A stretch of DNA of 64,000 bases from positions 1,054,001 through 1,118,000 of the forward strand of contig NZ_CP063202.1 in the NCBI RefSeq assembly GCF_019904235.1, written 5' to 3'. Below are positions 37,248-52,200 of this stretch, piece after piece. Position 1 is the stretch's first letter, and each line of letters opens with the position of its first letter. The position numbers were made by a program, and so were the translations under genes. The notes beneath the pieces were generated by a model. It was not told where the DNA came from and did not search any database. It saw nothing but the letters and a program-made list of their open reading frames with translations. The stretch is from Erythrobacter sp. SCSIO 43205 (GTDB taxonomy: Bacteria; Pseudomonadota; Alphaproteobacteria; Sphingomonadales; Sphingomonadaceae).

Positions 37248-37347
37248 TAATTTAGGTCCGTTTTGGATATAATTGATTTAGTTGCCAATGTGTTCGGCCA
37301 ATGGTACTTTTGTTGAATATCGAGGCAAGTCGGAGGCCTTGGATCAA

Positions 37348-38805
37348 ATGGGTTCAGATTTTTGGCAAATTCTTGCGATAGTACAGTATGAACTGCTTCT
37401 ATTTGCGGGGATTTTCTTTCTTATCGGGGCCCTCGATGATTTCGCCGTAGATGTTTCGTGGCTATGGCTCAAACTGACCGGACGGGCAAGGACCGCGAAG
37501 GTCAATCGCCGCGAACTCCAACATAGAAAACTCGCTGGCCCGGTCGCGGTCTTTGTGCCCGCTTGGCAAGAGGCCGACGTCATCTTTGAGACGATCCGGC
37601 ACTTACTCACTGTCTGGCCGCAGCAAAACCTTCGTCTATATGTCGGCATCTATCGCAACGACCCTGAAACATTAGAGGCCGCGACAAGTGCGGCGATGGG
37701 GGATGATAGGCTGCGCCTTGTTATCCATGACCGCGATGGCCCCAGCACAAAGGCGGACTGTTTGAACCGCCTTTATGAAGCAATGAGCGACGATGAAAAC
37801 CGTTCCCGCGTGCGCTTTGGCGCTGTGCTATTCCATGATGCTGAGGACATGGTTGACCCTGCCGGGCTTGGTCTTTTGGAATTGGCGATCTGTGAAGGCG
37901 CTGATTTTGCGCAATTGCCAGTGGAGCCGCTTCCACAAGCCTCGCGTGATTGGCTGGGCAGTCATTACTGTGAGGAATTTGCCGAAGCGCACGGTAAGGC
38001 AATGGTTGTGCGCGGTGCGGTTGGCGCAGGCTTACCCTCAGCGGGAGTCGGCTGCGGCGTGTCACGCGCGGCACTGTTCAAGCTGGCGGATGCAAAACTC
38101 GATGGGCTGCCGTTTGAGCCTGATTCCCTGACGGAGGATTATGAATTGGGCCTCGCGATTTCAAAACACGGCGGCACGTGCCGCTTTGTCCGAGCACGAG
38201 GAGAGGACGATCAACTTATTGCAACACGGGCATTTTTCCCTTCGAAGCTGAGCGAGATTGTCCGCCAAAAAACCCGCTGGGTTCACGGCATTTCGCTTCA
38301 GGGTTGGGACAGAACCGGCTGGACACACGGTGTTGCTGATACATGGATGCGCGCGCGTGACAGGCGCGGCCCATTGACCGCGCTGGTGATGGCGCTTGGC
38401 TATCTTCTCTTGGTGCTGACGTTGATCATCTCGGTCGCAGGCCACTTTGGTGAACTTCAACCGCTTGAACTTTCACCCTTTGTGGTCGCCTTGCTCAGCG
38501 CCAATCTCGCCTTTTTTGCATGGCGTGTGGCGTGGCGCTTTGCCTTCACTGCGCGCAATTATGGCGTTGCCGAAGGGGTGTTCGCAATCGTTCGCCTGCC
38601 GATCACAAACATCATCGCGATTATGGCGGGACGCCGCGCGGTACAGGCCTATTGGCGCACATTGTTTGGCGCTGCTCCCACGTGGGACAAGACCCGGCAC
38701 ACGGCCCATCCGGTCAAGCCAATCGCGCAGCAAGCCGTCTCAATGCCGCCACATCCGGCACCCTTTCCACATCACCTTAGAGAGAGGGTTAGCAAGACCG
38801 GATAA
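37348..38805 (+). CDS. NfrB-like membrane glycosyltransferase (GT2), lacking the C-terminal sensor domain
   Basis: From ATG 37348 the protein has 485 residues; a TTG at 37339 with GGAG in front is an alternative. An N-terminal membrane segment is followed by a GT2 domain: VAVFVPAWQEADVIFETIRH, the acidic site LFHDAEDMVDP, LTEDYELGLAI and QKTRWVHGISLQGWDRTGW, closely matching E. coli NfrB. Two to three membrane helices follow (about 345-440). NfrB of E. coli continues with a c-di-GMP-binding MshEN domain, which is absent. The next gene starts at TAATG overlap and encodes an outer membrane protein, mirroring the nfrA-nfrB partnership in polysaccharide synthesis. Confidence 0.82.
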   Translation: MGSDFWQILAIVQYELLLFAGIFFLIGALDDFAVDVSWLWLKLTGRARTAKVNRRELQHRKLAGPVAVFVPAWQEADVIFETIRHLLTVWPQQNLRLYVGIYRNDPETLEAATSAAMGDDRLRLVIHDRDGPSTKADCLNRLYEAMSDDENRSRVRFGAVLFHDAEDMVDPAGLGLLELAICEGADFAQLPVEPLPQASRDWLGSHYCEEFAEAHGKAMVVRGAVGAGLPSAGVGCGVSRAALFKLADAKLDGLPFEPDSLTEDYELGLAISKHGGTCRFVRARGEDDQLIATRAFFPSKLSEIVRQKTRWVHGISLQGWDRTGWTHGVADTWMRARDRRGPLTALVMALGYLLLVLTLIISVAGHFGELQPLELSPFVVALLSANLAFFAWRVAWRFAFTARNYGVAEGVFAIVRLPITNIIAIMAGRRAVQAYWRTLFGAAPTWDKTRHTAHPVKPIAQQAVSMPPHPAPFPHHLRERVSKTG

Positions 38806-40109
38806 TGTCACGGGGGGCAAACACGAGGGGCGCGCAAGCGAAGGGCAAGGGGGTGCCACTGGCATTGCTTGGGCTGATGATCGCCCTCTGGATCGCAGGG
38901 CGCGCGGTGCTTTGGGACAACCCTATTGCTCACGCCGCGCCCGCGTTATCGGCGGGTGAAGAACGCCCCGGCCTCAGCTCCCCCACGTCACGGCACGCCT
39001 CTGCGTCTCGCCCATCGTATCCCGCGCGGCAATCCATGGCTTACCCGCCTTACTATGACGCGCGCTATTATCCGCCGCCCGCCGCATATTATGGCTATCC
39101 ATCGCCCTATGCCCTTGGCACCATTCAGGAAAGGGCACTTGGTGAGGGGCAAGCGATTGGGCAGATCGTATATTATCCCGTCTATGCCGCCCCAGCCTAT
39201 GCACCGCGAGCGGCTTCCACCTATCCTGAGGCCCCGGCGCTTCCAAGAAACGGCTTTGCCCGTGCGCCGGAATTGGCGCGGGCCGGTGGCGGATATCTCT
39301 CTCAAACCTATGGCTTGGATGACATTTCCCGCTTTGCCCGGCAGGATGTGCGAAGGACCGGTCAGGTGTCGCGGCCCGGCACTGGCAGCGGGCTGCCCCC
39401 TGCTACCCTTGCACGCACTGATCGGTGGATGCTCGATGCGTTTGGGTTCTATCGCCAGGGCTCAAGTGCGCTTTCCATCCCGCAAGGGCGCTCCCCTGTC
39501 TATGGGGCCAGCCAACTCGCCGCCAATCTCCAATGGCGCGCCCGGCCATCTTCGAGCCACGATCCTCGCATCTTCCTGCGCGCGTATCAGGCGCAGGTTG
39601 ATGGCGGCGAGAGCGAGATTGCCGCAGGTGTTTCGGGCCGTCCTATCGGCACGGTCCCAGTGCGACTGTTCGCAGAGCTTCGCGCAACGCAAAGCCCTTC
39701 GATCTCTGATTTTGGTGTGGGTGCACAAACGAGAGTGCGTCCGGCGGCCTATGCTGCGACAGAACTGGGGCCAAAGCCTCTCCCGATGGGCTTCTCTCTC
39801 GAAACCTACGCAGCAGCGGGTTATGTCGCGGGCAGTCCAAGCACCTATTTCCTCGATGGACAGGCTGTCGCAACCCGCGAGCTTTTGCGCATCGGTAAAC
39901 CGGGCGCGGGCGGCGCGGTGAGTGTAGGCGGGGGCGTGTGGGGCGGCGCGCAAAGGGATGCCAAACGTCTTGATGTGGGGCCCACCTTGCGCTTCGATGT
40001 CGACATTGGAAAAATGCCCGCGCGCGTGTCGGTTGATTACCGCGAACAGGTGGCGGGCGATGCTGAACCCGATTCAGGTTTGGCTGCGACGGTTTCGACA
40101 CGGTTTTGA
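38805..40109 (+). CDS. Putative outer membrane partner of the NfrB-like enzyme (NfrA C-terminal-like barrel)
   Basis: The protein has 434 residues and shares one base with the glycosyltransferase stop. The N-terminus has one hydrophobic segment (VPLALLGLMIALWIAG), then a Pro/Tyr-rich region at about 70-105. From about residue 190 to the final STRF the sequence alternates as beta strands and ends in Phe, like an outer membrane barrel; this part resembles the C-terminal domain of phage N4 receptor NfrA. NfrA's TPR region is missing. It probably guides or exports the glycan made by the coupled enzyme. The identification is by context and pattern. Confidence 0.62.
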   Translation: MSRGANTRGAQAKGKGVPLALLGLMIALWIAGRAVLWDNPIAHAAPALSAGEERPGLSSPTSRHASASRPSYPARQSMAYPPYYDARYYPPPAAYYGYPSPYALGTIQERALGEGQAIGQIVYYPVYAAPAYAPRAASTYPEAPALPRNGFARAPELARAGGGYLSQTYGLDDISRFARQDVRRTGQVSRPGTGSGLPPATLARTDRWMLDAFGFYRQGSSALSIPQGRSPVYGASQLAANLQWRARPSSSHDPRIFLRAYQAQVDGGESEIAAGVSGRPIGTVPVRLFAELRATQSPSISDFGVGAQTRVRPAAYAATELGPKPLPMGFSLETYAAAGYVAGSPSTYFLDGQAVATRELLRIGKPGAGGAVSVGGGVWGGAQRDAKRLDVGPTLRFDVDIGKMPARVSVDYREQVAGDAEPDSGLAATVSTRF

Positions 40110-40175
40110 GACAACATAGGGGGTTGACGCGAAACCCTTCTTCCAAGACCTGCCGCGCTGCGGTAGTCGAAGATT

Positions 40176-41090
40176 ATGGATGTCTACCTTCCCATCGCGA
40201 ATCTCTCAGTGAACGGCCTGTTCATTGTGTTTCTTGGCGTGGGGACGGGTATTTTGTCGGGGCTGTTCGGTGTTGGCGGCGGATTTTTGACGACGCCCTT
40301 GCTGATTTTCTACGGTATCCCGCCCACGGTTGCCGCAGCCTCAGCCGCAACGCAGGTTACCGGTGCCAGCGTTTCCGGCGTCATCGCACATGGAAGGCGC
40401 AAAGGTGTCGATTATCGCATGGGGAGTGTGATGGTTGCTGGCGGCGTGATCGGCGCTTTGTTCGGCGCCGCGCTCTTCCGCCTTCTCCAGGCTTTGGGTC
40501 AAATCGATGTGGTCATCAACATTCTCTATGTCGTGATGCTGGGCTCTATCGGCACGCTTATGATGCGAGAGGCGTTTGAGGCAATATCGGCGACAAAGGG
40601 ACAAAAGGATGCAAGCCCGCGCAAAAGACGGCATCACCCGCTGGTGGCTGGCCTACCATTTCGCACAAGGTTTTATGCCTCAGGGCTTTATATCTCTCCT
40701 CTCGCGCCCCTTTTGCTTGGGGTGATCGTGGGGGTTTTGACTATGCTTATGGGCGTTGGCGGCGGCTTTATCTTAGTGCCAGCCATGCTTTACATCCTGG
40801 GGATGAGCGGCAATGTGGTAGTGGGCACATCCCTCTTCCAGATACTGTTCGTGACAATGGTGACCACCATGACTCACGCTCTTACCACCAAAGCGGTTGA
40901 TATTATTCTGGCGGGACTTTTGCTGCTCGGCTCGGTGATGGGTGCCCAATTTGGGACGCAAATCGCGATGAAGGCAAGGCCTGAAATCTTGCGTTTTGTG
41001 CTTGCTGCGATTGTGATCCTTGTTGCCTTGCGGATGCTGTACGGCCTAGGGGTCCAGCCCGATGAAATTTACACGGTGAGCCCGCTGTGA
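40176..41090 (+). CDS. TauE/SafE family sulfite/anion exporter
   Basis: The protein has 304 residues and about eight membrane segments. Two family repeats are visible, GTGILSGLFGVGGGFLTTPLL near residue 22 and LTMLMGVGGGFILVPAMLYILG near residue 190. The protein moves sulfite, sulfonates or related anions across the inner membrane. The next gene is coupled and encodes a TIGR02186 protein; this pair is repeatedly found together in alphaproteobacteria. Confidence 0.9.
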   Translation: MDVYLPIANLSVNGLFIVFLGVGTGILSGLFGVGGGFLTTPLLIFYGIPPTVAAASAATQVTGASVSGVIAHGRRKGVDYRMGSVMVAGGVIGALFGAALFRLLQALGQIDVVINILYVVMLGSIGTLMMREAFEAISATKGQKDASPRKRRHHPLVAGLPFRTRFYASGLYISPLAPLLLGVIVGVLTMLMGVGGGFILVPAMLYILGMSGNVVVGTSLFQILFVTMVTTMTHALTTKAVDIILAGLLLLGSVMGAQFGTQIAMKARPEILRFVLAAIVILVALRMLYGLGVQPDEIYTVSPL

Positions 41091-41863
41091 TGGCTCGCGC
41101 CCGCTCTTTGCTACCCGCATTCGCCGCGCTGTTGATGGCACCGTTCCTGATGGGACAAGCAGAGCCTATTCTCATACCCGAAGTCAGCCAGTCGCGCATC
41201 GAAGTGCGTCAGGGTTTTACCGGTGCAGACTTGCTTTTGTACGGCGCGGTTATCGACCCACGGGGCGCAAACAGCGGGCGCGAATTCGACATTGCGGTCG
41301 TATTGAAGGGGCCGGCTGAGCCCATCCGGCTGCGCGAAAAGGAACGTATCGCGGGGGTCTGGATGAACGCAGGCGCCAACGATTTCCGCTCAGCGCCATC
41401 TTTCTTCGCCATCGCATCATCGCGCCCCATCGAGGAGATCGTCGATCCGCTCACGGCGGCAATTTATGAGCTGGGCACAGAATTCATACAGCTTAGTCCC
41501 ACGGGACAGATTGAACCCGAAGAGCAGGCGCGTTTCTCAAAGGGGCTTGTCGAAATGCGCGAGCGGCTCGGCCTTTACAAGCAAAACCCGCAAGGCGTGC
41601 GCATCAGCGAGGGCGTGCTTTATCAAGCCCGTATCGCCCTGCCGTCCAATGTCACCACCGGGCAGTACACTGCCGAAACCTTCGCGATTGCCGATGGCCG
41701 CGTGCTGGCAAGTGCGACCGCCGAGATCGAAGTGGTGAAGGTGGGACTTGAGGGCAGTGTGGTTTATGCTTCGCAGGAATGGTCGCTTTTCTACGGGCTT
41801 GGCGCGATTGCCTTGTCGCTTGGTATGGGCTGGATTGCGGGACAGGCGTTCTCCAAGCTCTAG
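41090..41863 (+). CDS. TIGR02186 family membrane-anchored protein
   Basis: The protein has 257 residues from ATG 41090, which overlaps the exporter stop (a GTG at 41087 is also possible). A signal peptide precedes QAEPILIPEVSQSRIEVRQGFTGADLLLYG. The segments VVLKGPAEPIRLREKERIAGVWMN and FYAL-like SAPSFFAIASSRP are the family pattern. A C-terminal membrane helix lies at about 231-250. Most of the protein is thus periplasmic, anchored at its C-terminus, probably as partner of the TauE/SafE exporter. Confidence 0.83.
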   Translation: MARARSLLPAFAALLMAPFLMGQAEPILIPEVSQSRIEVRQGFTGADLLLYGAVIDPRGANSGREFDIAVVLKGPAEPIRLREKERIAGVWMNAGANDFRSAPSFFAIASSRPIEEIVDPLTAAIYELGTEFIQLSPTGQIEPEEQARFSKGLVEMRERLGLYKQNPQGVRISEGVLYQARIALPSNVTTGQYTAETFAIADGRVLASATAEIEVVKVGLEGSVVYASQEWSLFYGLGAIALSLGMGWIAGQAFSKL

Positions 41864-42042
41864 ATATTTGATGCGCTTACGCATCCTGCGCGCACTGGTG
41901 GCATACCTGCAGTTGGAAAAAAGTCCTGCGTTGACGCGATCTTAACTCTGATTGCGCATTGCTGAGTGTCGCGGTTGACGCCGCACGGAAGACCGCGTCC
42001 GGGATCATTCGGCGCGCTCACAAAACGACAGGACAAAGCCGC

Positions 42043-43695
42043 ATGAATGCGATTGCTAATCAGGGTTTTGAGACGCAGGGAAAAGCTGCCAACGAAAATG
42101 CACGATTGCCCATCGGCGTCGTCCTTGAGATTTCGGGCGCCGGTTCGCAAATCGCGCTCGACCTGCAACGTCTGAATGAGTGCATGGAAGACCCCGACCG
42201 CTCGGTCGCTCTGGCGGGACAAGTCGGCAGTCAGATCAAGATCCGTGTTGGCGATGCCTGGCTGCTTGCAAACGTGCGCGACCAACGCAAGGATCGCCGC
42301 GCGGAAAACGGCATTGTTGCTCATATCGACTTTCTTGGCGAGGGCGCTGAAGAAAAGCTCACCGGCCGAATTCACGGTTTCAAGCGCGGCGTGACGCGGT
42401 ATCCTGTTCCAGGCGCGATGGTTTATCCTGCAACCACCAAAGACCTTGAACAAATCTACGCCTCCGACGGGCGCGCAAACATCACCATCGGCACTGTATT
42501 CCCGACCAAGGACATTCGCGCTGGCCTTTATATCGATGCGATGCTGGGCAAGCACTTTGCGCTGCTTGGTTCGACCGGCACCGGTAAATCCACCAGCGCT
42601 GCGCTCATCCTCCACCGTATTTGCGAGCACGCGCCGGAGGGTCACATCGTGATGATCGATCCGCACGGCGAATATTCCGCAGCCTTCCGTCAGACTGGCA
42701 AGATCCTCGACGTATCGAACCTGCAAATGCCGTACTGGCTGATGAATTTTGAAGAGCATTGCGAAGTGCTCCTCACCAGTGACGGCAATGAACGCCAGGT
42801 CGATATGGATATTCTCGCCAAGTGTTTGCTGCACGCCCGCTCCAAGAATCGCTTGGCTGAGACGATGGGCAAGATCACCGTGGATTCGCCTATCCCCTAT
42901 CTCCTCTCCGACCTCTCGACCAAGCTTCAGGACGAGATGGGTAAGCTCGACAAGGCGACCTCGTCAGCGCCTTATATGCGCATCAAAGGCAAGCTTGAGG
43001 AACTCAAAGCCGACCCGCGATACCAGTTCATGTTCTCAGGAATGCTGGTGGGCGATACGATGACCGACTTCATCTCCAAAGTGTTCCGTATGCCGGGCGA
43101 GGGCAAGCCGATTTCGATCATCGACGTCTCTGGCGTTCCCTCCGATATTACCTCCACTGTTGTCGCCGTTCTGTCGCGCCTCGTGTTCGACTTTGCGATC
43201 TGGGGCCGGGAAGAGAACACGCGTCCCATCCTCCTCGTTTGCGAAGAGGCCCACCGCTACGTCCCGAACGAGAAGAACTCCGATGGCTCCTCGGTTGGCT
43301 CCATTCTCAGCCGGATCGCCAAGGAAGGCCGGAAATACGGTATCAGCCTCGGCCTCATCACCCAACGTCCGTCGGACCTTGCCGAAGGCGTGCTTTCCCA
43401 GTGCGGCACAATCATCTCGATGCGTCTCAACAACGACCGCGACCAGGCTTTTGTGCGCTCTGCCATGCCAGAAGGCTCGCGCGGCTTCCTCGATTCGATT
43501 CCTGCTCTGCGCAACCGTGAGTGCATTATCTGCGGCGAGGGCGTCGCCATCCCGATCCGCGTCAACTTCGACAATCTCGAAGAGCACAAGCGCCCTGCCT
43601 CCGAAGACCCCAGCTTCTCAGAACTGTGGAACCGGGGCGGAGGCGAGGAAGAAATCGTCGAGCGCGTGGTCCTTCGCTGGCGCAGCCAGGGCTAG
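42043..43695 (+). CDS. HerA-type hexameric ATPase (HAS barrel plus FtsK/HerA domain)
   Basis: The protein has 550 residues from ATG 42043, after AGGACA. Residues of about 20-115 form a HAS-barrel (GVVLEISGAGSQIALDL ... GQVGSQIKIRVGDAWLLANV). The DUF87/HerA ATPase follows, with Walker A LGSTGTGKSTSAA, MIDPHGEYSAAF, Walker B ILLVCEEAHRYVP and ITQRPSDLAEGVLSQCGT. HerA proteins translocate DNA, often with a NurA nuclease or a defence effector. No such gene is coupled here; the next gene is a convergent TIR-domain gene 23 bp away. Role unresolved. Confidence 0.87.
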   Translation: MNAIANQGFETQGKAANENARLPIGVVLEISGAGSQIALDLQRLNECMEDPDRSVALAGQVGSQIKIRVGDAWLLANVRDQRKDRRAENGIVAHIDFLGEGAEEKLTGRIHGFKRGVTRYPVPGAMVYPATTKDLEQIYASDGRANITIGTVFPTKDIRAGLYIDAMLGKHFALLGSTGTGKSTSAALILHRICEHAPEGHIVMIDPHGEYSAAFRQTGKILDVSNLQMPYWLMNFEEHCEVLLTSDGNERQVDMDILAKCLLHARSKNRLAETMGKITVDSPIPYLLSDLSTKLQDEMGKLDKATSSAPYMRIKGKLEELKADPRYQFMFSGMLVGDTMTDFISKVFRMPGEGKPISIIDVSGVPSDITSTVVAVLSRLVFDFAIWGREENTRPILLVCEEAHRYVPNEKNSDGSSVGSILSRIAKEGRKYGISLGLITQRPSDLAEGVLSQCGTIISMRLNNDRDQAFVRSAMPEGSRGFLDSIPALRNRECIICGEGVAIPIRVNFDNLEEHKRPASEDPSFSELWNRGGGEEEIVERVVLRWRSQG

Positions 43696-43718
43696 CTATA
43701 GCCCGTCAGACCACCGCT

Positions 43719-45494
43719 TTAGCGCTTGAGCGACGCCAGATTATTCACCTCTCGCCAGCCATTGTTGGCGGGATCGTAGCTGACGTTATAGAACCGTTGC
43801 AGTCCGCCGGCATCGCCTGTGTTCTGGCCGGTCGAGTTAAAGAAGATGCGGCCTGTGACGCCATTAAAACTGCGCGAGCGAAGCGTTGCGACCAGCGCGT
43901 CTGCTGTAATCTCACCCTCGATTTCGGCAGCCGCTTGCTTGACGATCACGCCCGAATCAAACGCCACCGCCTCAAGCCGCCAGCGCGGTGAAATCGGCCC
44001 GAACAGGCTTTCAAACTGGGCGATTTCTTCAGGTTGCTCGCCGGAATAGCTCGCAGCAGCGAACACGTCGGTGATGTCGATCAAACGGTCTGTTTGCAGC
44101 GGTGACAGCTCATTCAACGCATAGGTGTGGTGGCTGTTGTTCCAGCTTGCCAGCATGGCTTTGCGTTGCGGTTTGTCAGCGCCGAATTGTCCGCGGGCCA
44201 GATCTTTGAAGTCATTGCTGAGGCCCATGATGACGATCAATCGCGTCTCACCAAGGATCGCCTGGCCCTCTGGCGTTGCGAAAGCATCATTGATCGAGCC
44301 GCGCTCATATTCGCGCACTTCAACGCGCCCGTCTTCCTGCCAACCGTTGAGCGTATCCTCGCCCAATTCTTCGGTGATGCGGTTGAAGAACAGCTCGCCA
44401 TAGGTTTTCGTATCATCCCCGCCGCCTTCAACGGTTTCGAGCATGAAGGTGATGTCGATCCCTTGCGCAATCGCGCGCTCTGCCAGCACTTTGAACTGGC
44501 TTGCGCGTTCATCCACGCCCGAACCCACACGGAAAATCGGCAGATCGCTGTCTTTCCAGCCAAGGTCAGCGCGGCTGCCCGCCGTGGTCAGGATAATAGC
44601 CGGACGTTTGCCGCTTTCCTCGATCACGTCGAGCACTTGCGGCGTGAACTCGGTGATCGAGGGGCCGATCACGGCGACCACATTGCGCTCTTCAAGGAAG
44701 GCGCGCAAATTTTCGATGACATCTGGCGCCTCGCGCGTTTTCATCGCATCCAATGGCGCATCAAGATCCTGCACCATCAATTGAGGAAACCCTTCGAGCG
44801 ATGCCTTCAGGCCGTTGCTTTGCTGAATACCGAAACTTTCATTGGGATAGATGCCAAGGACGATCGCCTTGTCTTCGGGAACGCCGGCAAGACGCCCGTT
44901 GCTGCTTCCCCCGCCAAAGCCAGTCAATTGCAGTGCGAGCATCCCGACGATGAGCAGTGCGAGCGCTGCGGCAACCATGCCGATGGGGCGTTTCCAGAAC
45001 GGGGTGTCAGCGGTGTTTGCGGTTTCGGGCAAGCCTGCGCCCTGATCTTCGGTCGCAAGGCCGAACTGTGCCATTTGCGCCGCACCTGCCTCGGTTCCTT
45101 CCCCTTCGCCCGCAATCGTGCGGATGCTTTCAAGGAAGACGCGCCAGTTCTTGCTTTTGGTTGGATCAGCGCTTGAATCCTGCAATTCGGCGGCCTGAAT
45201 CCGGCGAAAGCCCCGCGGGATCACCACATCATCGATCAGCACGGGCACAAGCTTGTTGTCGATGACGCCGTCCTCGGCCTCTTCCTTCACCCAATTGCTT
45301 TTGATCGAGGTGTTGGACCACACCACCACAATCGCTTTCGACTGCTTGATGTGTTTGTCGATGACATTGTCGAACTCTTCACCAGCGCGAAGATCGCGGT
45401 CCCACCAGACCGAATACCCTTCCGCTTCCAGAGCCTTGGCCATGAAGTTGACGCGTTCACGGTCCCGCCGTGAATATGAAATGAAAATATCCAA
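43719..45494 (-). CDS. TIR domain - transmembrane helix - periplasmic-binding-protein fusion
   Basis: The protein has 591 residues. Residues 1-127 are a TIR domain (MDIFISYSRRDRERV; box W30-W31-D32). The segment S63-I-K-S66-N-W68-V-K-E71 has the spacing of the catalytic Glu motif of NADase TIRs. A linker leads to one membrane helix at about 171-190, preceded by WKRP, which keeps the N-terminus inside. From about 209 to the end is a type I periplasmic-binding fold like LivJ/Peripla_BP_6 (IVLGIYPNESFGIQQSNGLKA, VVAVIGPSITEFTPQVLDVIEESG, AIILTTAGSRADLG). Inside-out topology therefore resembles a ligand-sensing receptor with a TIR output. No ABC transporter genes are adjacent. Confidence 0.88.
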   Translation of the reverse strand: MDIFISYSRRDRERVNFMAKALEAEGYSVWWDRDLRAGEEFDNVIDKHIKQSKAIVVVWSNTSIKSNWVKEEAEDGVIDNKLVPVLIDDVVIPRGFRRIQAAELQDSSADPTKSKNWRVFLESIRTIAGEGEGTEAGAAQMAQFGLATEDQGAGLPETANTADTPFWKRPIGMVAAALALLIVGMLALQLTGFGGGSSNGRLAGVPEDKAIVLGIYPNESFGIQQSNGLKASLEGFPQLMVQDLDAPLDAMKTREAPDVIENLRAFLEERNVVAVIGPSITEFTPQVLDVIEESGKRPAIILTTAGSRADLGWKDSDLPIFRVGSGVDERASQFKVLAERAIAQGIDITFMLETVEGGGDDTKTYGELFFNRITEELGEDTLNGWQEDGRVEVREYERGSINDAFATPEGQAILGETRLIVIMGLSNDFKDLARGQFGADKPQRKAMLASWNNSHHTYALNELSPLQTDRLIDITDVFAAASYSGEQPEEIAQFESLFGPISPRWRLEAVAFDSGVIVKQAAAEIEGEITADALVATLRSRSFNGVTGRIFFNSTGQNTGDAGGLQRFYNVSYDPANNGWREVNNLASLKR

Positions 45495-45520
45495 GTTTCT
45501 AACCCCCGAGAACCCGCACC

Positions 45521-46258
45521 TTAGGTGCCTCGTTCATCGCCGTAAAGATGGATGTGCATCCGGTCTGACATACGGTATCCCTTTTTGAGACACAGCGGGG
45601 ACAGCCACACCTGCCGCTCTCTTAAGGTATTGGAATCAGTACCTTCTGCCATCAGGAACAGGCGGTCCTTGGGGATGCGATATTCGCGTTGCAGGGCGTC
45701 CACTTCATCCACATCTTCAGGTTTTGCCACGACAAATTTGAAGAAGGCGCGCGGGTCGCTTGCGTAAAAGTCGAGTCGCTCAGGGATAAGCGCCAGATCA
45801 GCCGCGTTACCCGAATGGGAAAGCTTGGGGCTGACATTGTATTGATCGACCCGGATGTCGATGTGGGCCGAGGGGCGGGTGGTGCCGTTGGTTTCGATCT
45901 CGACCTCGATCGTGTCGAGAATGGCGAGCATGTCGGCCAATGGCCCGCACTGCATAAGCGGCTCACCCCCTGTAATAACCAAACGCTTTTGTCCGAGCGC
46001 GGCGATCTTCGCGGCGGCTTTTTCGGGGGACACCTTCACCTGATTGACAGCGCGGTCATAGGTGATTTCATCGCGATGGGGACGGTTATCGCCCTCGAAC
46101 CGCCAGGTGTAGGCGGTGTCGCACCACGTACAGGCAAGGTTGCAGCGTGACAGGCGGATAAAGGCAACCGGCATACCGGCGCTTGGCCCTTCGCCCTGCA
46201 GGGATGCAAAAATTTCGGGTGCGCCATCATCGTCGGTTGCAAGAACAAGATCAGCCAT
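45521..46258 (-). CDS. queE: 7-carboxy-7-deazaguanine synthase
   Basis: The protein has 245 residues from ATG 46258; an earlier ATG at 46321 falls inside the 25-bp repeated element's side and gives an unconserved N-terminus. The radical-SAM cluster motif is Cys39-x3-Cys43-x2-Cys46 (CNLACTWC), following EIFASLQGEGPSAGMP. VITGGEPLMQ is also typical. The enzyme makes the CDG intermediate of queuosine synthesis. Other queuosine genes are not in the window. Confidence 0.92.
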   Translation of the reverse strand: MADLVLATDDDGAPEIFASLQGEGPSAGMPVAFIRLSRCNLACTWCDTAYTWRFEGDNRPHRDEITYDRAVNQVKVSPEKAAAKIAALGQKRLVITGGEPLMQCGPLADMLAILDTIEVEIETNGTTRPSAHIDIRVDQYNVSPKLSHSGNAADLALIPERLDFYASDPRAFFKFVVAKPEDVDEVDALQREYRIPKDRLFLMAEGTDSNTLRERQVWLSPLCLKKGYRMSDRMHIHLYGDERGT

Positions 46259-46292
46259 CAGCCCGCACCTCCCGCAACGGAGGGGTTGTAGG

Positions 46293-46317
46293 AAGTTTGA
46301 GACACTTGAGACACTGT
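46293..46317 (-). promoter_or_regulatory. 25-bp element with tandem TGTCTCAA upstream of queE
   Basis: On the minus strand this is identical over 25 bp to the element at 24461-24485 upstream of chpT. It ends 34 bp before the queE ATG, in the same orientation to its gene as the chpT copy. Confidence 0.5.
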
Positions 46318-46445
46318 ACAAGAGTCAAAATCCAAACGATCAATAGGCGGGCTTTTGATCGGTTTTTCCGATTGAAAACGGAGGGTGTTGGCGCAAGTCA
46401 TTGTCCCCCTATGCCACGCCTTTTGCCGGTAGGAAATTATCTGGC

Positions 46446-47261
46446 TCAGTTCCATTCTGCCGGATTGAGCGCGAGAAGCTTTGAAAATTCGGCGTAGAGC
46501 GCGGGTTCATGCGCTTTTAGCGCTTGGGGCTTTTCGAAGAAGGTGACGATCCCTTCTGCGAAGAATTCTTCGTGGTTTGTTGCGCCATATGGGTCGATCA
46601 AGGCGGGTTCGCCCGCCTCAACCTTTGCGACATGGGCATGGTAAGCATCCAGCATCGCCTGTTCCCACTTGGCATAGGCCTGGCCTTTGCGAAGGATGGG
46701 AATGCCGTTGGTGTGTCCCGTCAGGCTGTCCAATTGGTGGGCGAATTCGTGGATGACGACGTTCTCGCCATCGTCTGCGCGAAGGCCGCCGTGAAGCGCA
46801 TCATTCCATGAGAGCACCACGGGTCCCCTTTGCCAGCTTTCGCCAAGCGTTCCGTGACGATGCTCGTGGACGAGGGTTCCATCATGCCGCCCGCGCCCGG
46901 TATCGAACACGGCGGGGTAGAGCAGGACATTGCGGATCGTATCGTACCACTGCGGGCTGTTGACGATAAGAAGGCAAGCCTGCGCTGCGATGGAAAGACG
47001 CATGGCCTCCGTCACTTCGACCCCGTTTTTGCCCCGGAAAGTGACTTGATCAAGGAACAGGTTGATCTTGCCCTCATGGGCTGCGCGCAAGGTATTGGGG
47101 AGGCGCGTGACGAGGGGCACGAGCTGCTCGACGATATGGCGCTGCTGAGGCGTCAACGGGGTGGCGAGCAAGGCTGCGCGCCGCTTGCGTTTGGCCATAT
47201 GGCGATAGACGAGCAGCGCTACGATCAGCAGCGGGACGAGCAGGATGAGCCAAGGCGACAT
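46446..47261 (-). CDS. MtfA-like zinc-dependent peptidase (M90)
   Basis: The protein has 271 residues. One N-terminal membrane anchor (about 3-20) is followed by a basic stretch. The zinc site is His171-Glu172-x2-His175 in VVIHEFAHQLD, and EFFAEGIVTFFEKP supplies the further Glu. MtfA of E. coli processes or binds the glucose regulator Mlc, but many homologues lack that partner. It is encoded 45 bp after valS on the same strand, so it is probably cotranscribed. Confidence 0.87.
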   Translation of the reverse strand: MSPWLILLVPLLIVALLVYRHMAKRKRRAALLATPLTPQQRHIVEQLVPLVTRLPNTLRAAHEGKINLFLDQVTFRGKNGVEVTEAMRLSIAAQACLLIVNSPQWYDTIRNVLLYPAVFDTGRGRHDGTLVHEHRHGTLGESWQRGPVVLSWNDALHGGLRADDGENVVIHEFAHQLDSLTGHTNGIPILRKGQAYAKWEQAMLDAYHAHVAKVEAGEPALIDPYGATNHEEFFAEGIVTFFEKPQALKAHEPALYAEFSKLLALNPAEWN

Positions 47262-47306
47262 ATCCGTGATTTAGGATCGCCGCCCCGGCATTGTTAGGGG
47301 TTGCCC

Positions 47307-50039
47307 TTAGCCGAGCCGCTCCAACGCTGCAGTCAATCGCTCAACCTCGCCCTGATGGTGGGCGAAATCGGCCTTGGCTTTCTCCACCGCTTCGGGCTTG
47401 GCGCGTTCGACGAAATTAGCATTGGAAAGCCTGCCTTCGAGCGACTTTGCTTCCTTCTGCGACGCTTCGAGAGCTTTGGTCAGGCGCGCTTTTTCAGCAT
47501 CAATGTCGATGATGCCTTCAAGCGGGATCACAAACACATCGCCAAGCGCCGTCACCTGCATGGCTGGACCATCGGGTGCCTCGCCCTGGATCACCGGGGT
47601 GAGCCGCGCGAGGCGTTCGATTGCCGCGCTTGAGCGGTCGATAGTGCTCGATGCGACGGCGGAGGGTTCGGGCACATAGGCGGCAAGTTTTGCGCCCGGT
47701 GAAATGCCGAGCTCGTTCTTGGCCGAGCGAACATTGGTGGTGAGATCGATCACCCAATCGATCGCATCGGTTGCTTCTTTTGTGACCTCGGCGCGCGGGG
47801 AAGGCCACTTTGCGGTGATAAGGTCGTAGGACCGCTCACCTTGCGCGTGCCATAGCTCTTCGGTGATGAAGGGCATGAACGGGTGCAGCATGACGAGAAT
47901 CTGATCAAGCGCCCATCCGGCAACCTCGCGTGTTTCTTTCGCAGGCAAGCCTTCGGGGTCCGCATCGTCGGCAAACACTGGCTTAATCAGTTCAAGATAC
48001 CAGTCGCAGAACTTCGACCATGTGAATTGATAAATCGCATTGGCTGCCGCATCGAAGCGCAGGTCTGTCATCGCGGCTTCAATTTCGGCGCACACCGATT
48101 GCACTTCGCCGATAATCCATTGGTTGGCGGCAAGGCGTGCTTGCGGAGCCTTCACCGTGGTTGATTTGCCGATGCCGTTCGATTGGCAAAAACGCGTTGC
48201 GTTCCAAAGCTTTGTTGCAAAGTTGCGGTATCCTTCGACCCGCTTTTCGTCCATTTTGATGTCGCGGCCCTGGCTTTCCATCGCTGCCATGAAGAACCGC
48301 AGCGCATCGGCGCCATATTGATCGATAAGGCCCAGCGGATCGACAACATTGCCCTTGGATTTGGACATCTTCGCGCCGTCGGCAGCGCGCACAAGGCCGT
48401 GGAGATACAGGCGCGGCCACGGGGCCTCACCCATATTGTAATTCCCCATCATCATCATCCGCGCATCCCAGAAGAACAGGATGTCGAAGCCGGAGATGAG
48501 GAGAGAGTTCGGGAAGTGCTTTTCGAGCAGCGGCTGGCCGTCCTCTGGCCACCCGAGCGTGGCAAACGGCCACAGCGCGGAAGAGAACCATGTGTCGAGC
48601 ACGTCTTCATCGCGGGTGAGGGCAACGCCTTCGCCGGCTTGGGCTTGCGCTTCTTCCTCGGTCATGGCGACATAAACGCCGCCGTCTGCGTCGAACCAAG
48701 CCGGGATACGGTGCCCCCACCAAAGCTGTCGCGAAACACACCATGGCTGGATGTTCTCCATCCAGTTGAAGAATGTTTTTTCCCAGCTTTTGGGCACGAT
48801 TTCGACTTCGCCCGAACGCACCTGCTCAATGGGCTTTTCCGCCAGTTTCGCGGCATCGACATACCATTGATCGGTCAGCCAAGGCTCGATCACCACACCG
48901 CCGCGGTCGCCGAAAGGCGTTGCGATCTGGCGCGGTTCCGCGTCGGAGACGACTTCCTCGCCCTTTTTGTTCTTGGAAACGTGCGGAATGAGGTGGCCGC
49001 TCTCTTTAAGGCGCTCAACCACAAGCTCGCGCGCGCCGTCCACCTTGTCGCGGCGGAAGCGATGGAGGCCGATAAATTCATCCGGCACGAGCCCGTCAGC
49101 CGTCTGGCAAACATCGCCATTCCCATCGAGCATATTGAGCATTTGCGCAGGCTCGATACCGGCGCGCTTGCCCACTTCAAAGTCGTTAAAGTCATGCCCC
49201 GGCGTGATTTTCACCGCGCCCGAACCAAGCTCTGGATCAGCGTGTTCATCCGCGACGATGGGAATGCGGCGACCCGTGATTGGGAGCACAACGTGCTTGC
49301 CAACGACGCTTTTATACCGTTCGTCCGATGGGTGTACCGCCACGGCCATATCGGCGAGCATCGTCTCAGGGCGCGTGGTCGCAACCTCGATATAATCGCG
49401 CCCGTCTGAAAGGGTCACACCGGCCTCTAAGGGGTACTTAAAGTGCCAGAAGTGGCCCGCAATTGTCTGCTGCTCCACCTCAAGGTCGCTGATCGCTGTC
49501 TTGAGCTTGGGGTCCCAGTTTACCAGCCGCTTGTCGCGATAAATCAGGCCATCGTTGTAAAGATCGACAAAGGTCTTGAGCACTGCTTTCGTAAAGTGCT
49601 CGTCCATCGTGAATTGTTCGCGCGACCAGTCCATCGAACAGCCAAGGCGGCGCAATTGCGTGGTGATGGTCCCGCCGCTTTCCGCTTTCCATTCCCACAC
49701 CTTATCGACGAATTCTTCGCGGCTGTAATTGGTGCGCTTGTCCTGTTTCGCTTCCATCTGCCGCTCGACCACCATCTGCGTGGCAATCCCTGCGTGGTCG
49801 GTGCCCACCACCCATAAAGAGTCTTTGCCGCGTAGCCGCTCATAACGGATCACGATGTCTTGCAGCGTGTTGTCCAGCGCGTGACCAATGTGAAGCGAGC
49901 CAGTGACGTTTGGCGGCGGGTTCACAATGGTAAAGGCTTCGGCGTCGGGACGTTCAGGGCGGAAACCGCCGGTCGTTTCCCAATGCTGGTACCAGCGCTG
50001 CTCAATGTCCGCTGGGTTGAAGGTTGTTGGTAGGCTCAT
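47307..50039 (-). CDS. valS: Valine--tRNA ligase
   Basis: The protein has 910 residues. The class I signatures are [18 protein letters not shown] near residue 37 and KMSKSKGN near residue 560. The editing domain ([32 protein letters not shown]) is intact and hydrolyses mischarged threonyl-tRNA. A C-terminal coiled coil rich in Glu, Lys and Ala (about 840-910) is the usual tRNA-binding arm. The start [17 protein letters not shown] fits the family. Confidence 0.96.
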
Positions 50040-50247
50040 TGTATTATCGGCTCACTTACGTTTGCGGGGCCACGCCGCCCGCACCAAAATTTTCATCCCC
50101 ATGCCAATCCATTGGGTGCAGTGCAACAACTCTCACCCAATAGACGCACAGCGCCGTCGTTCTAACAACACTGTCACGCTTCAACTGTGCACCCGTGCAA
50201 GACTTTGCTTGTTAAGCGGCGGATTTCGCCGCATATCCTCAATCACA

Positions 50248-51372
50248 ATGTTAGGGGATCTCAGCTACACCTTTGAAGACGCTGCCGAAGGAGAGGGCGC
50301 GGGCGCTTCCAAGCTTGTATTGGAAGGGCAATTGCTGGTGTCGACTGTCGGCCCGTTTGAGGCCGAAATCGGCGACAACTGCCCAGATATTTCCGCAATT
50401 GATATTTCCAGAGTCGATGAGATCGACACGATTGGCGCATGGGTCATTTCGCGGCTTGCCAGACAGCATGACTGCCAAATCACCGGGGCAAACGATAAGG
50501 CAAAATATCTGCTGGAAGCGGTGGCGGACACGGTTTGTGATGATGCGCTGACAGCAGAGGAAGTGCCCGTGTGGGAGCGCGTGCCGCTCTTGCTTGGCGG
50601 CAAAGTCTATCAGGCGCGCAGCGGATTTTTCGGGGTGGTGAGCTTTTTGGGCGCGATTATCGTCGGATTTGGCAGTCTCATCCGCCGCCCCTCGCGCATT
50701 CCCATTCGCGCCGTGGTGCGCCAAATGGAAATGGTGGGCGTCTCTGCCCTTCCGATCATCGGATTGATGAGCTTCCTCATCGGCATCGTTATCGCGCAGC
50801 AGGGCGCGGTGCAGCTTGAACAATTTGGCGCAGAGGCGCTGACGGTGAACCTTGTGGGCCGGATCACCTTGCGTGAACTGGGTGTGCTTATGACCGCGAT
50901 CATGGTGGCGGGCCGTTCGGGCAGCGCCTTTGCCGCGCAAATCGGGACGATGCGTCTGACCGAAGAAGTGGATGCAATGCGCACCATCGGTATCTCGCCC
51001 ATCGAACGGCTGGTGATCCCGCGCATCATCGCCTGCACTTTTATGATGGTCATTCTCGGCTTTTACTCAAGCATCGTCGGTATCATCGGCGGCGCAGTCA
51101 TCGGCCAATTCGCGCTCGGCATTCCGTTCTTCAACTTCCTTGAACGTATTCAGGAGGTTGTGCCTCTGCACGATGTTTGGGTCGGTCTTGTGAAAGCGCC
51201 CGTTTTCGGCCTCATCGTTGCGCTGGCTGGCTGTTATCACGGGATGCAGGTCAAAGGAAATTCAGAAGAGGTTGGCGTTCGAACAACCATGGCAGTTGTC
51301 TCGGCGATCTTTGCCGTCATCGTGCTTGATGCGTTTTTCGCGGTGTTCTTTACCGAAGTGGGCTGGGGCTAG
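50248..51372 (+). CDS. mlaE: MlaE-type ABC permease with N-terminal STAS-like domain
   Basis: The protein has 374 residues from ATG 50248. Residues of about 1-100 look like a STAS domain (LEGQLLVSTVGPFEAEI ... IDISRVDEIDTIGAWVI), the part that is the separate MlaB protein in E. coli. The MlaE permease follows (QMEMVGVSALPIIGLMSFLIGIVIAQQG, RELGVLMTAIMVAGRSGSAFAAQIGTM, EEVDAM). It forms the membrane channel of a Mla-type phospholipid transporter that keeps the outer membrane asymmetric. It is the first gene of a four-gene operon. Confidence 0.9.
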   Translation: MLGDLSYTFEDAAEGEGAGASKLVLEGQLLVSTVGPFEAEIGDNCPDISAIDISRVDEIDTIGAWVISRLARQHDCQITGANDKAKYLLEAVADTVCDDALTAEEVPVWERVPLLLGGKVYQARSGFFGVVSFLGAIIVGFGSLIRRPSRIPIRAVVRQMEMVGVSALPIIGLMSFLIGIVIAQQGAVQLEQFGAEALTVNLVGRITLRELGVLMTAIMVAGRSGSAFAAQIGTMRLTEEVDAMRTIGISPIERLVIPRIIACTFMMVILGFYSSIVGIIGGAVIGQFALGIPFFNFLERIQEVVPLHDVWVGLVKAPVFGLIVALAGCYHGMQVKGNSEEVGVRTTMAVVSAIFAVIVLDAFFAVFFTEVGWG

Positions 51373-51378
51373 AAACGG

Positions 51379-52200
51379 ATGCTGACTTACGAAGAACCCG
51401 AAGCGCCCCACGGCCGTTTCAGCAATGAGCCGCCGATTGTTGTGCGCGGCCTCGTCAACCGCTTTGGCAATTTCACCGTGCACGACGGGCTCGATCTGAC
51501 AGTCAATCGCGGAGAGATCCTTGGCGTTGTCGGGGGCTCTGGCACAGGCAAATCAGTGATGATGCGGTCCATCATTGGCCTGCAAAAGCCGACGGCGGGC
51601 GATATTGATGTGCTGGGACGGCGGATCACCGGGGTTGACCTTGATAAACGCATTGGCGTGCGGCGGCGCTGGGGCGTTTTGTTCCAGGGTGGCGCGCTGT
51701 TTTCAACGCTCACCGTGGGCGAAAATGTCGAAGTGCCTTTGAAAGAATTCTACCCGGAAATCAGCCCGGAATTGCGACGCGAAATTGCACGTTTCAAAGT
51801 GCTTTTATCAGGACTTCCCGAAGAGGCGGCGCTCAAATACCCAAGCGAACTATCCGGCGGGATGAAAAAGCGCGCAGGGCTTGCAAGAGCGCTCGCGCTT
51901 GATCCGGAATTGCTGTTTCTGGACGAACCGACTGCCGGCCTCGATCCGATTGGCGCGGCGGCTTTTGATCAGCAGACCAAGGAATTGAAAGAGACGCTTG
52001 GCCTTACCGTTTTCCTTATCACGCACGACCTCGACACGCTGTATGAGATTTGTGACCGGGTGGCGGTGCTGGCCGATAAAAAGGTGATCGCGGTGGGCAC
52101 CATCCCTGAGCTTTTGGAAACAGGCCATCCGTGGATCGAGGAATATTTCAATGGACCGCGCGGGCGAACGGCTCAAGCCGCACAAGCACGAGGGGGCTGA
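51379..52200 (+). CDS. mlaF: MlaF-type ABC transporter ATP-binding protein
   Basis: The protein has 273 residues, beginning 6 bp after the permease stop. Walker A is GGSGTGKS, the signature is ELSGGMKKRAGLARALALD and Walker B is LLFLDEPTAGLDP, with the switch His in FLITHDL. GMKKR after the signature is typical of MlaF/Mkl ATPases. It powers lipid transfer through the MlaE channel. Confidence 0.93.
   Translation: MLTYEEPEAPHGRFSNEPPIVVRGLVNRFGNFTVHDGLDLTVNRGEILGVVGGSGTGKSVMMRSIIGLQKPTAGDIDVLGRRITGVDLDKRIGVRRRWGVLFQGGALFSTLTVGENVEVPLKEFYPEISPELRREIARFKVLLSGLPEEAALKYPSELSGGMKKRAGLARALALDPELLFLDEPTAGLDPIGAAAFDQQTKELKETLGLTVFLITHDLDTLYEICDRVAVLADKKVIAVGTIPELLETGHPWIEEYFNGPRGRTAQAAQARGG

Follow-up and report, generated by a model that had tools for sequence, protein, structure and literature searches.

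A fusion of TIR, one membrane helix and a type I binding fold

We analyzed a 64,000-nucleotide stretch of the Erythrobacter sp. SCSIO 43205 contig NZ_CP063202.1 (positions 1,054,001 to 1,118,000; hereafter the window) and focused on a gene at 43719..45494, whose conserved product combines a TIR domain, a single membrane helix and a type I periplasmic-binding fold. A preliminary description made from the letters of the window gave the extent of this gene; corrected for strand, the gene lies on the minus strand and runs from 45494 to 43719 from a TTG start. The start residue is common to 14 other carriers of the gene, in which the codon is ATG, GTG or TTG. The features of the gene are as follows.

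43719..45494, minus strand: whole gene, starting with TTG and comprising 591 codons and a stop; TIR, membrane helix and type I periplasmic-binding fold
45105..45494, minus strand: TIR domain, residues 1-130
45279..45281, minus strand: codon of E72, placed by alignment to AbTIR
45291..45293, minus strand: codon of W68, the tryptophan of W-x3-E
44982..45104, minus strand: variable linker, residues 131-171, of low model confidence and relaxed selection
44988..44993, minus strand: K168-R169, positive charges ahead of the helix
44925..44981, minus strand: membrane helix, residues 172-190, placed by hydropathy and by a helix in the model, with a segment like it in 34 of 36 homologues
43740..44879, minus strand: type I periplasmic-binding fold, residues 206-585

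Sequence and structure prediction both bore out the earlier observation that these three parts occur in a single protein. The TIR domain, first noted at residues 1-127, matched Pfam TIR_2 over residues 3-107 at a score of 84.2 bits (cut-off 28), which places it in the TIR family, and structure prediction supported a TIR fold. Its best sequence and fold matches include AbTIR, PdTIR and SPARTA TIR-APAZ; the PDB profile search with the mixed alignment A6 was headed by TPR proteins owing to other members of that alignment, and only its TIR rows were used. Within the motif proposed earlier, S63-x2-S66-x-W68-x2-E71, W68 held and the key glutamate moved by one residue: alignment to AbTIR set the catalytic glutamate of that enzyme, in its W-x3-E motif, opposite E72, and a tyrosine opposite E71. 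The glutamate signature of TIR enzymes that cleave nicotinamide adenine dinucleotide (NAD+), W-x3-E, is therefore present, with E72 as its glutamate. In an alignment of 80 rows (67, including the window's own protein, plus 13), 65 had a letter in this column, the remaining 15 being TIR-less or cut; E72 was found in all 65, W68 in 61 and E71 in 55.

Structure prediction likewise supported the type I periplasmic-binding fold, earlier drawn towards residue 591 and found at residues 206-585. The best matches of this ectodomain were LivJ-type amino-acid-binding proteins and the ectodomains of natriuretic-peptide and glutamate receptors, at a sequence identity to known binding proteins (3ip5, 4q6b and 3td9 among them) of 10-16%. 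Pfam Peripla_BP_6 scored 25.0 bits on the protein itself, under the curated cut-off of 31.7, and 39.1 bits, over the cut-off, on residues 241-539 of the relative P0061; at E ≤ 0.01 it was found in 32 of the 36 members of alignment A1. Near-invariant residues of the ectodomain (T281, E282, R308, R322, E329, R330, Y365, G366 and D428) suggest that a cleft has been retained. The helix, previously given as residues 171-190, was placed at about 172-190 by hydropathy and the model; hydropathy peaked at 2.46 over residues 170-188, and the best window elsewhere reached 1.18. Two structural outcomes had been named in advance as telling against the description, a prediction lacking an NADase pocket and one lacking a membrane helix. 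Neither was seen, the TIR side being judged from the fold and E72 only.

Conservation and predicted topology of the family

The survey of homologues proposed in the preliminary description revealed a real family, marked by the constancy of E72 and by signs of selection on both domains. Among 111 homology matches, 67 (P0002-P0068, the window's own protein included) spanned at least 60% of the protein at identities down to 32%, and the other 44 covered mainly the TIR part. The fusion occurred in 15 of 114 genomes of the genus (E ≤ 1e-60), and none of these 15 carriers had an internal stop codon in the matched frame. The ectodomain was found in 8 of 296 genomes drawn from the order, one of the eight belonging to another genus, and among 385 genomes drawn from the class only in the window's own; across 298 genomes of the taxonomic family, 54 contained a protein match at E ≤ 1e-20, which included the ectodomain in only 3. 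Ratios of nonsynonymous to synonymous substitution rates (dN/dS) for ten pairs were 0.02-0.10 in the TIR part and 0.02-0.12 in the ectodomain, and 0.06-0.33 in the linker and helix part (seven pairs with estimable dS); these ratios are rough, dS often exceeding 1, and point to purifying selection on both the TIR domain and the ectodomain. This bears on the idea that the binding fold is vestigial or structural, dimerizing the protein and binding no small molecule, as in the amino-terminal domains of some glutamate receptors, where such a fold has no small-molecule role. The Pfam score under the curated cut-off and the distance of the ectodomain from known binding proteins would fit that idea, yet many polar residues are near-invariant across distant members and the ectodomain is under purifying selection, and we regard this idea as very improbable.

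Several sequence arguments support an orientation with the TIR domain in the cytoplasm and the binding fold in the periplasm. The strongest hydrophobic segment was the one ahead of the ectodomain in 34 of the 36 members, and in 33 of these 34 the 12 residues before the helix held more Lys and Arg than the 12 after it, the numbers being equal in the remaining one. In the other two members, P0061 and P0062, the segment is weakly hydrophobic and begins with a twin-arginine sequence, which we read as a probable twin-arginine translocation (Tat)-type signal. Nine metagenome proteins (P0118, P0120-P0123 and P0125-P0128) carry the same ectodomain and lack the TIR domain; all nine begin with a pair of hydrophobic segments whose joining loop holds 3-4 Lys or Arg, so that by the positive-inside rule the binding fold would lie outside in the fusion and in these hairpin forms alike. 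The TIR-less relatives may have a separate TIR gene upstream or a misplaced start. A search with one of them, P0122, hit the window's own genome and no other among 398 of the phylum, and gave no match against viral contigs. Eight further TIR-less matches of 266-425 residues (P0021, P0022, P0025, P0063, P0064, P0113, P0114 and P0124) were left out as presumed cut fragments, P0113 being the one whose sequence was inspected. As a separate observation, twin-arginine sequences in mid-protein, following an N-terminal TIR domain and standing where the membrane helix would be, occur in L022, L024, P0061, P0062, P0104 and P0105; an internal Tat-type anchor in such TIR proteins would be unusual.

We lean slightly towards reading the protein as a single-pass inner-membrane receptor in which a periplasmic ligand would control a cytoplasmic TIR domain acting on NAD+. 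With the same topology, the TIR domain could instead be a non-catalytic docking module that recruits another protein when a ligand binds outside. Consistent with docking, the nearest TIR folds include the scaffold TIRs of MyD88, MAL and the IL-1R family; the glutamate is frequent across TIRs in general, being present in more than 70% of them (PMC7075850) and so not specific to NAD+ cleavage; and the ectodomain also exists without TIR, and therefore output partners may be separate proteins. However, E72 is constant throughout the aligned rows, and the window's own genome gave a single TIR_2 match, leaving no second TIR_2 protein to dock with. We consider docking rather unlikely.

A fixed chromosomal site between queE and HerA

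The TIR gene lies between two neighbors.

45521..46321, minus strand: queE-like gene (Radical_SAM), immediately upstream, separated by a 26-base gap
41959..43695, plus strand: HerA-like ATPase (DUF87, E 4.7e-51), convergent, core (present in 107 of 114 genomes), marking the fixed site

The best NCBIfam models for the upstream gene were QueE, at 81.3 bits against a cut-off of 200. Because it shares the strand of the TIR gene across a gap of 26 bases, the two are suggested to lie on one transcript, and the queE-like gene is a probable operon partner. A promoter scan of 43500-46600 found none, with 1.3 expected in shuffled sequence; terminator-like sites in the same interval numbered three, against 3.6 expected. 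In all 15 carriers of the genus, the TIR gene stands behind queE on the same strand and faces HerA, with 23-29 bases between the queE and TIR-gene matches in L037-L049. A gene of 39% identity occupies the same site on the Sphingomonadaceae contig L007 (G023/L011 is probably the same genome). In the 15 non-carrier loci that were fetched, queE faces HerA without a TIR gene, the spacing between the two matches being 2-278 bases in 14 and 841 in L074.

A HerA tree was built from L007 and the best-matching 30 of the 107 genomes; in it, all 15 carriers of the genus grouped with four non-carriers in a single clade (support 99/95). The pattern of presence and absence required at least five changes, two of them forced by well-supported branches. 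We read this as probable vertical inheritance of the fusion gene with losses; the L007 copy must either go back to an older ancestor or have reached this site independently.

The neighbors scanned are mostly housekeeping genes. Two genes on the far side of valS (49903-52200, opposite strand) code for an MlaE permease and an ABC ATPase, which form an Mla-type pair and not a Liv-type one. The cognate permease and ATPase of a transporter using such a binding protein were absent from the eight nearest proteins scanned. HerA was rejected as a dedicated partner, being convergent and present in 107 of the 114 genomes versus 15 for the TIR gene.

Bacterial TIR domains of Thoeris, SPARTA and CBASS deplete NAD+ to stop the infected cell, and pairs of an NADase and HerA occur in defense. 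The protein might by analogy be an anti-phage sensor, whose periplasmic domain would detect an infection-linked change of the envelope and whose TIR domain would deplete NAD+ and thereby stop the infected cell. In keeping with this, PADLOC TIR-effector models match the TIR part, and the HerA neighbor matches PADLOC HerA models (E 8.8e-118) and, as its best NCBIfam matches, anti-phage HerA models, at 275.6 bits far under the cut-off of 850. Against it, the gene sits between queE and HerA in all carriers examined and follows the HerA tree with losses; HerA is core and on the opposite strand; and the PADLOC matches of the protein itself are confined to its TIR stretch. Across the nine further neighbors at 37282-52200, PADLOC gave only general-family cross-matches (viperin models to the radical SAM QueE-like protein; mad3, mad8, AriA and HEC-02A to the ABC ATPase), the rest of the window not having been scanned nor mobile elements sought. 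A Thoeris partner was likewise missing, with no ThsA-like match among the eight neighbors scanned, the genome beyond them not having been searched, and the best NCBIfam Thoeris model reached 28.5 bits against a cut-off of 220. Taken together, an anti-phage role appears improbable.

The spacer behind queE (window 43695-45521, loci L037-L086) receives insertions in a lineage-specific manner while its surroundings stay mostly constant; it was found empty, with the TIR gene alone, with the TIR gene and a gene for a 257-258-residue protein, or with the latter alone. That protein has a single helix and no clear Pfam family, and its gene separates the TIR gene from HerA in L040 (667-1443), L042 (3308-4081), L043, where it is broken, and L046 (3340-4113). 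In G877, G880 and G920 it stands directly behind queE without the TIR gene (HerA not adjoining in G920), and a frame change breaks it in G951; it was therefore rejected as an obligate partner. The window's genome gave no match to the protein, and the matches in G871 and G928 were weak.

A proposed receptor-like mechanism and related TIR proteins

If the protein is the receptor that we favor, a small molecule would bind in the ectodomain cleft and either close it or alter an ectodomain dimer. The change would travel through the single helix and set up or undo an active arrangement of the TIR domains, and the active TIR would then cleave or cyclize NAD+ via E72, producing a local nucleotide signal or lowering NAD+. 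This output is probably regulatory, not suicidal, because the gene keeps one fixed chromosomal site, has mostly housekeeping surroundings and follows the tree of its core neighbor with losses. A stronger form, which we hold as a tentative possibility, is a ligand-gated TIR enzyme, in which an extracellular metabolite on the Venus-flytrap domain would directly control NAD+ cleavage or a cyclic-ADP-ribose-type messenger for regulation and not for suicide on phage infection, paralleling the control of cyclic GMP by natriuretic-peptide receptors.

Several observations weigh against the favored receptor. The membrane helix is poorly modelled, with a predicted local distance difference test (pLDDT) score of 53-56, and residues 31-40, near the loop that closes the active site in other TIR enzymes, are modelled less well (pLDDT 79 and 66). 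W68 is substituted in 4 of the 65 rows, and the nearest TIR folds include, besides the scaffolds MyD88 and MAL, deoxyribosyltransferases lower down. In a profile comparison, the ectodomain did not align with E. coli LivJ/LivK (probability 1.9), so none of its residues could be assigned to a known site. The fusion gave no match in 99 of the 114 genomes of the genus. Finally, nine of 18 other TIR proteins (17 from the taxonomic family, plus L008 from a gammaproteobacterium) lack a clear membrane segment, so that an anchor is not inherent to the TIR module itself; in the other nine the TIR domain is followed by a clear hydrophobic segment, and L022, one of those without, has a weaker twin-arginine-like segment.

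AbTIR, PdTIR and SPARTA TIR-APAZ, which are soluble or within defense complexes, share with the protein the TIR fold and a W-x3-E motif with invariant glutamate; unlike them, its TIR domain is predicted to be membrane-tethered and is fused to a periplasmic binding fold. Unlike LivJ/LivK-type proteins, it has an internal-helix anchor in place of a soluble transporter subunit and no adjoining Liv-type transporter genes. The preliminary description had compared the topology to that of Toll-like receptors, which holds for the predicted single helix joining an outer sensor to a cytoplasmic TIR. It does not hold for the sensor or the domain order, since Toll-like receptors have a leucine-rich-repeat ectodomain, the opposite order and a scaffold TIR, whereas the ectodomain here is a type I periplasmic-binding fold, nearer to natriuretic-peptide and glutamate receptors. 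With natriuretic-peptide receptor guanylyl cyclases (ANF; Foldseek E 2e-11 for the ectodomain) it shares a type I binding fold, here predicted to lie outside, one helix and a putative nucleotide enzyme inside. Those receptors carry kinase-like and cyclase domains, their catalytic part not being N-terminal; here, the protein is bacterial, the putative catalytic part is N-terminal and TIR replaces both domains.

Most of what is known of TIR domains in bacteria concerns soluble effectors that are set off within the cell by phage infection. The fusion family and other anchored TIR proteins suggest that TIR enzymes may in addition be coupled to sensing domains on the far side of the inner membrane, in which case NAD+ or cyclic nucleotides made by TIR domains may serve these Alphaproteobacteria as everyday second messengers. 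Since the ectodomain fold is among the best understood ligand-binding folds, routine binding screens can be used to look for its ligand, which opens the question of what switches a membrane TIR to direct test.

The openly licensed literature searched held no description of a fusion of TIR and a periplasmic-binding fold, or of a modular TIR set, in line with the earlier statement that no characterized protein of such form was known. The isolation which that statement implied gave way to anchored TIR fusions in related bacteria. Pfam identified TPR repeats in P0077, P0104 and P0105, a PD40 propeller in P0073 and an unrelated phosphonate-type periplasmic-binding domain in P0086 (790 residues; 62.3 bits against a cut-off of 27). 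These proteins likewise begin with a TIR_2 domain, followed by a helix or a Tat-like anchor at around residues 150-215, and differ in that their C-terminal domains are unrelated to the ectodomain described here. By domain composition, the fusion appears as one member of a modular set, in part membrane-anchored, that joins an N-terminal TIR to varied domains; the protein is a conserved, well-formed variant of a wider class, built of known parts and with a putative receptor function. P0086, with TIR, helix and phosphonate-type binding protein in that order, represents another case, independent of this one, in which a TIR was joined to a binding fold. L012, L015 and L018, from three genomes of the taxonomic family, combine TIR with a C-terminal domain that by eye, with no profile run, is FHA-like, and have no clear membrane segment.
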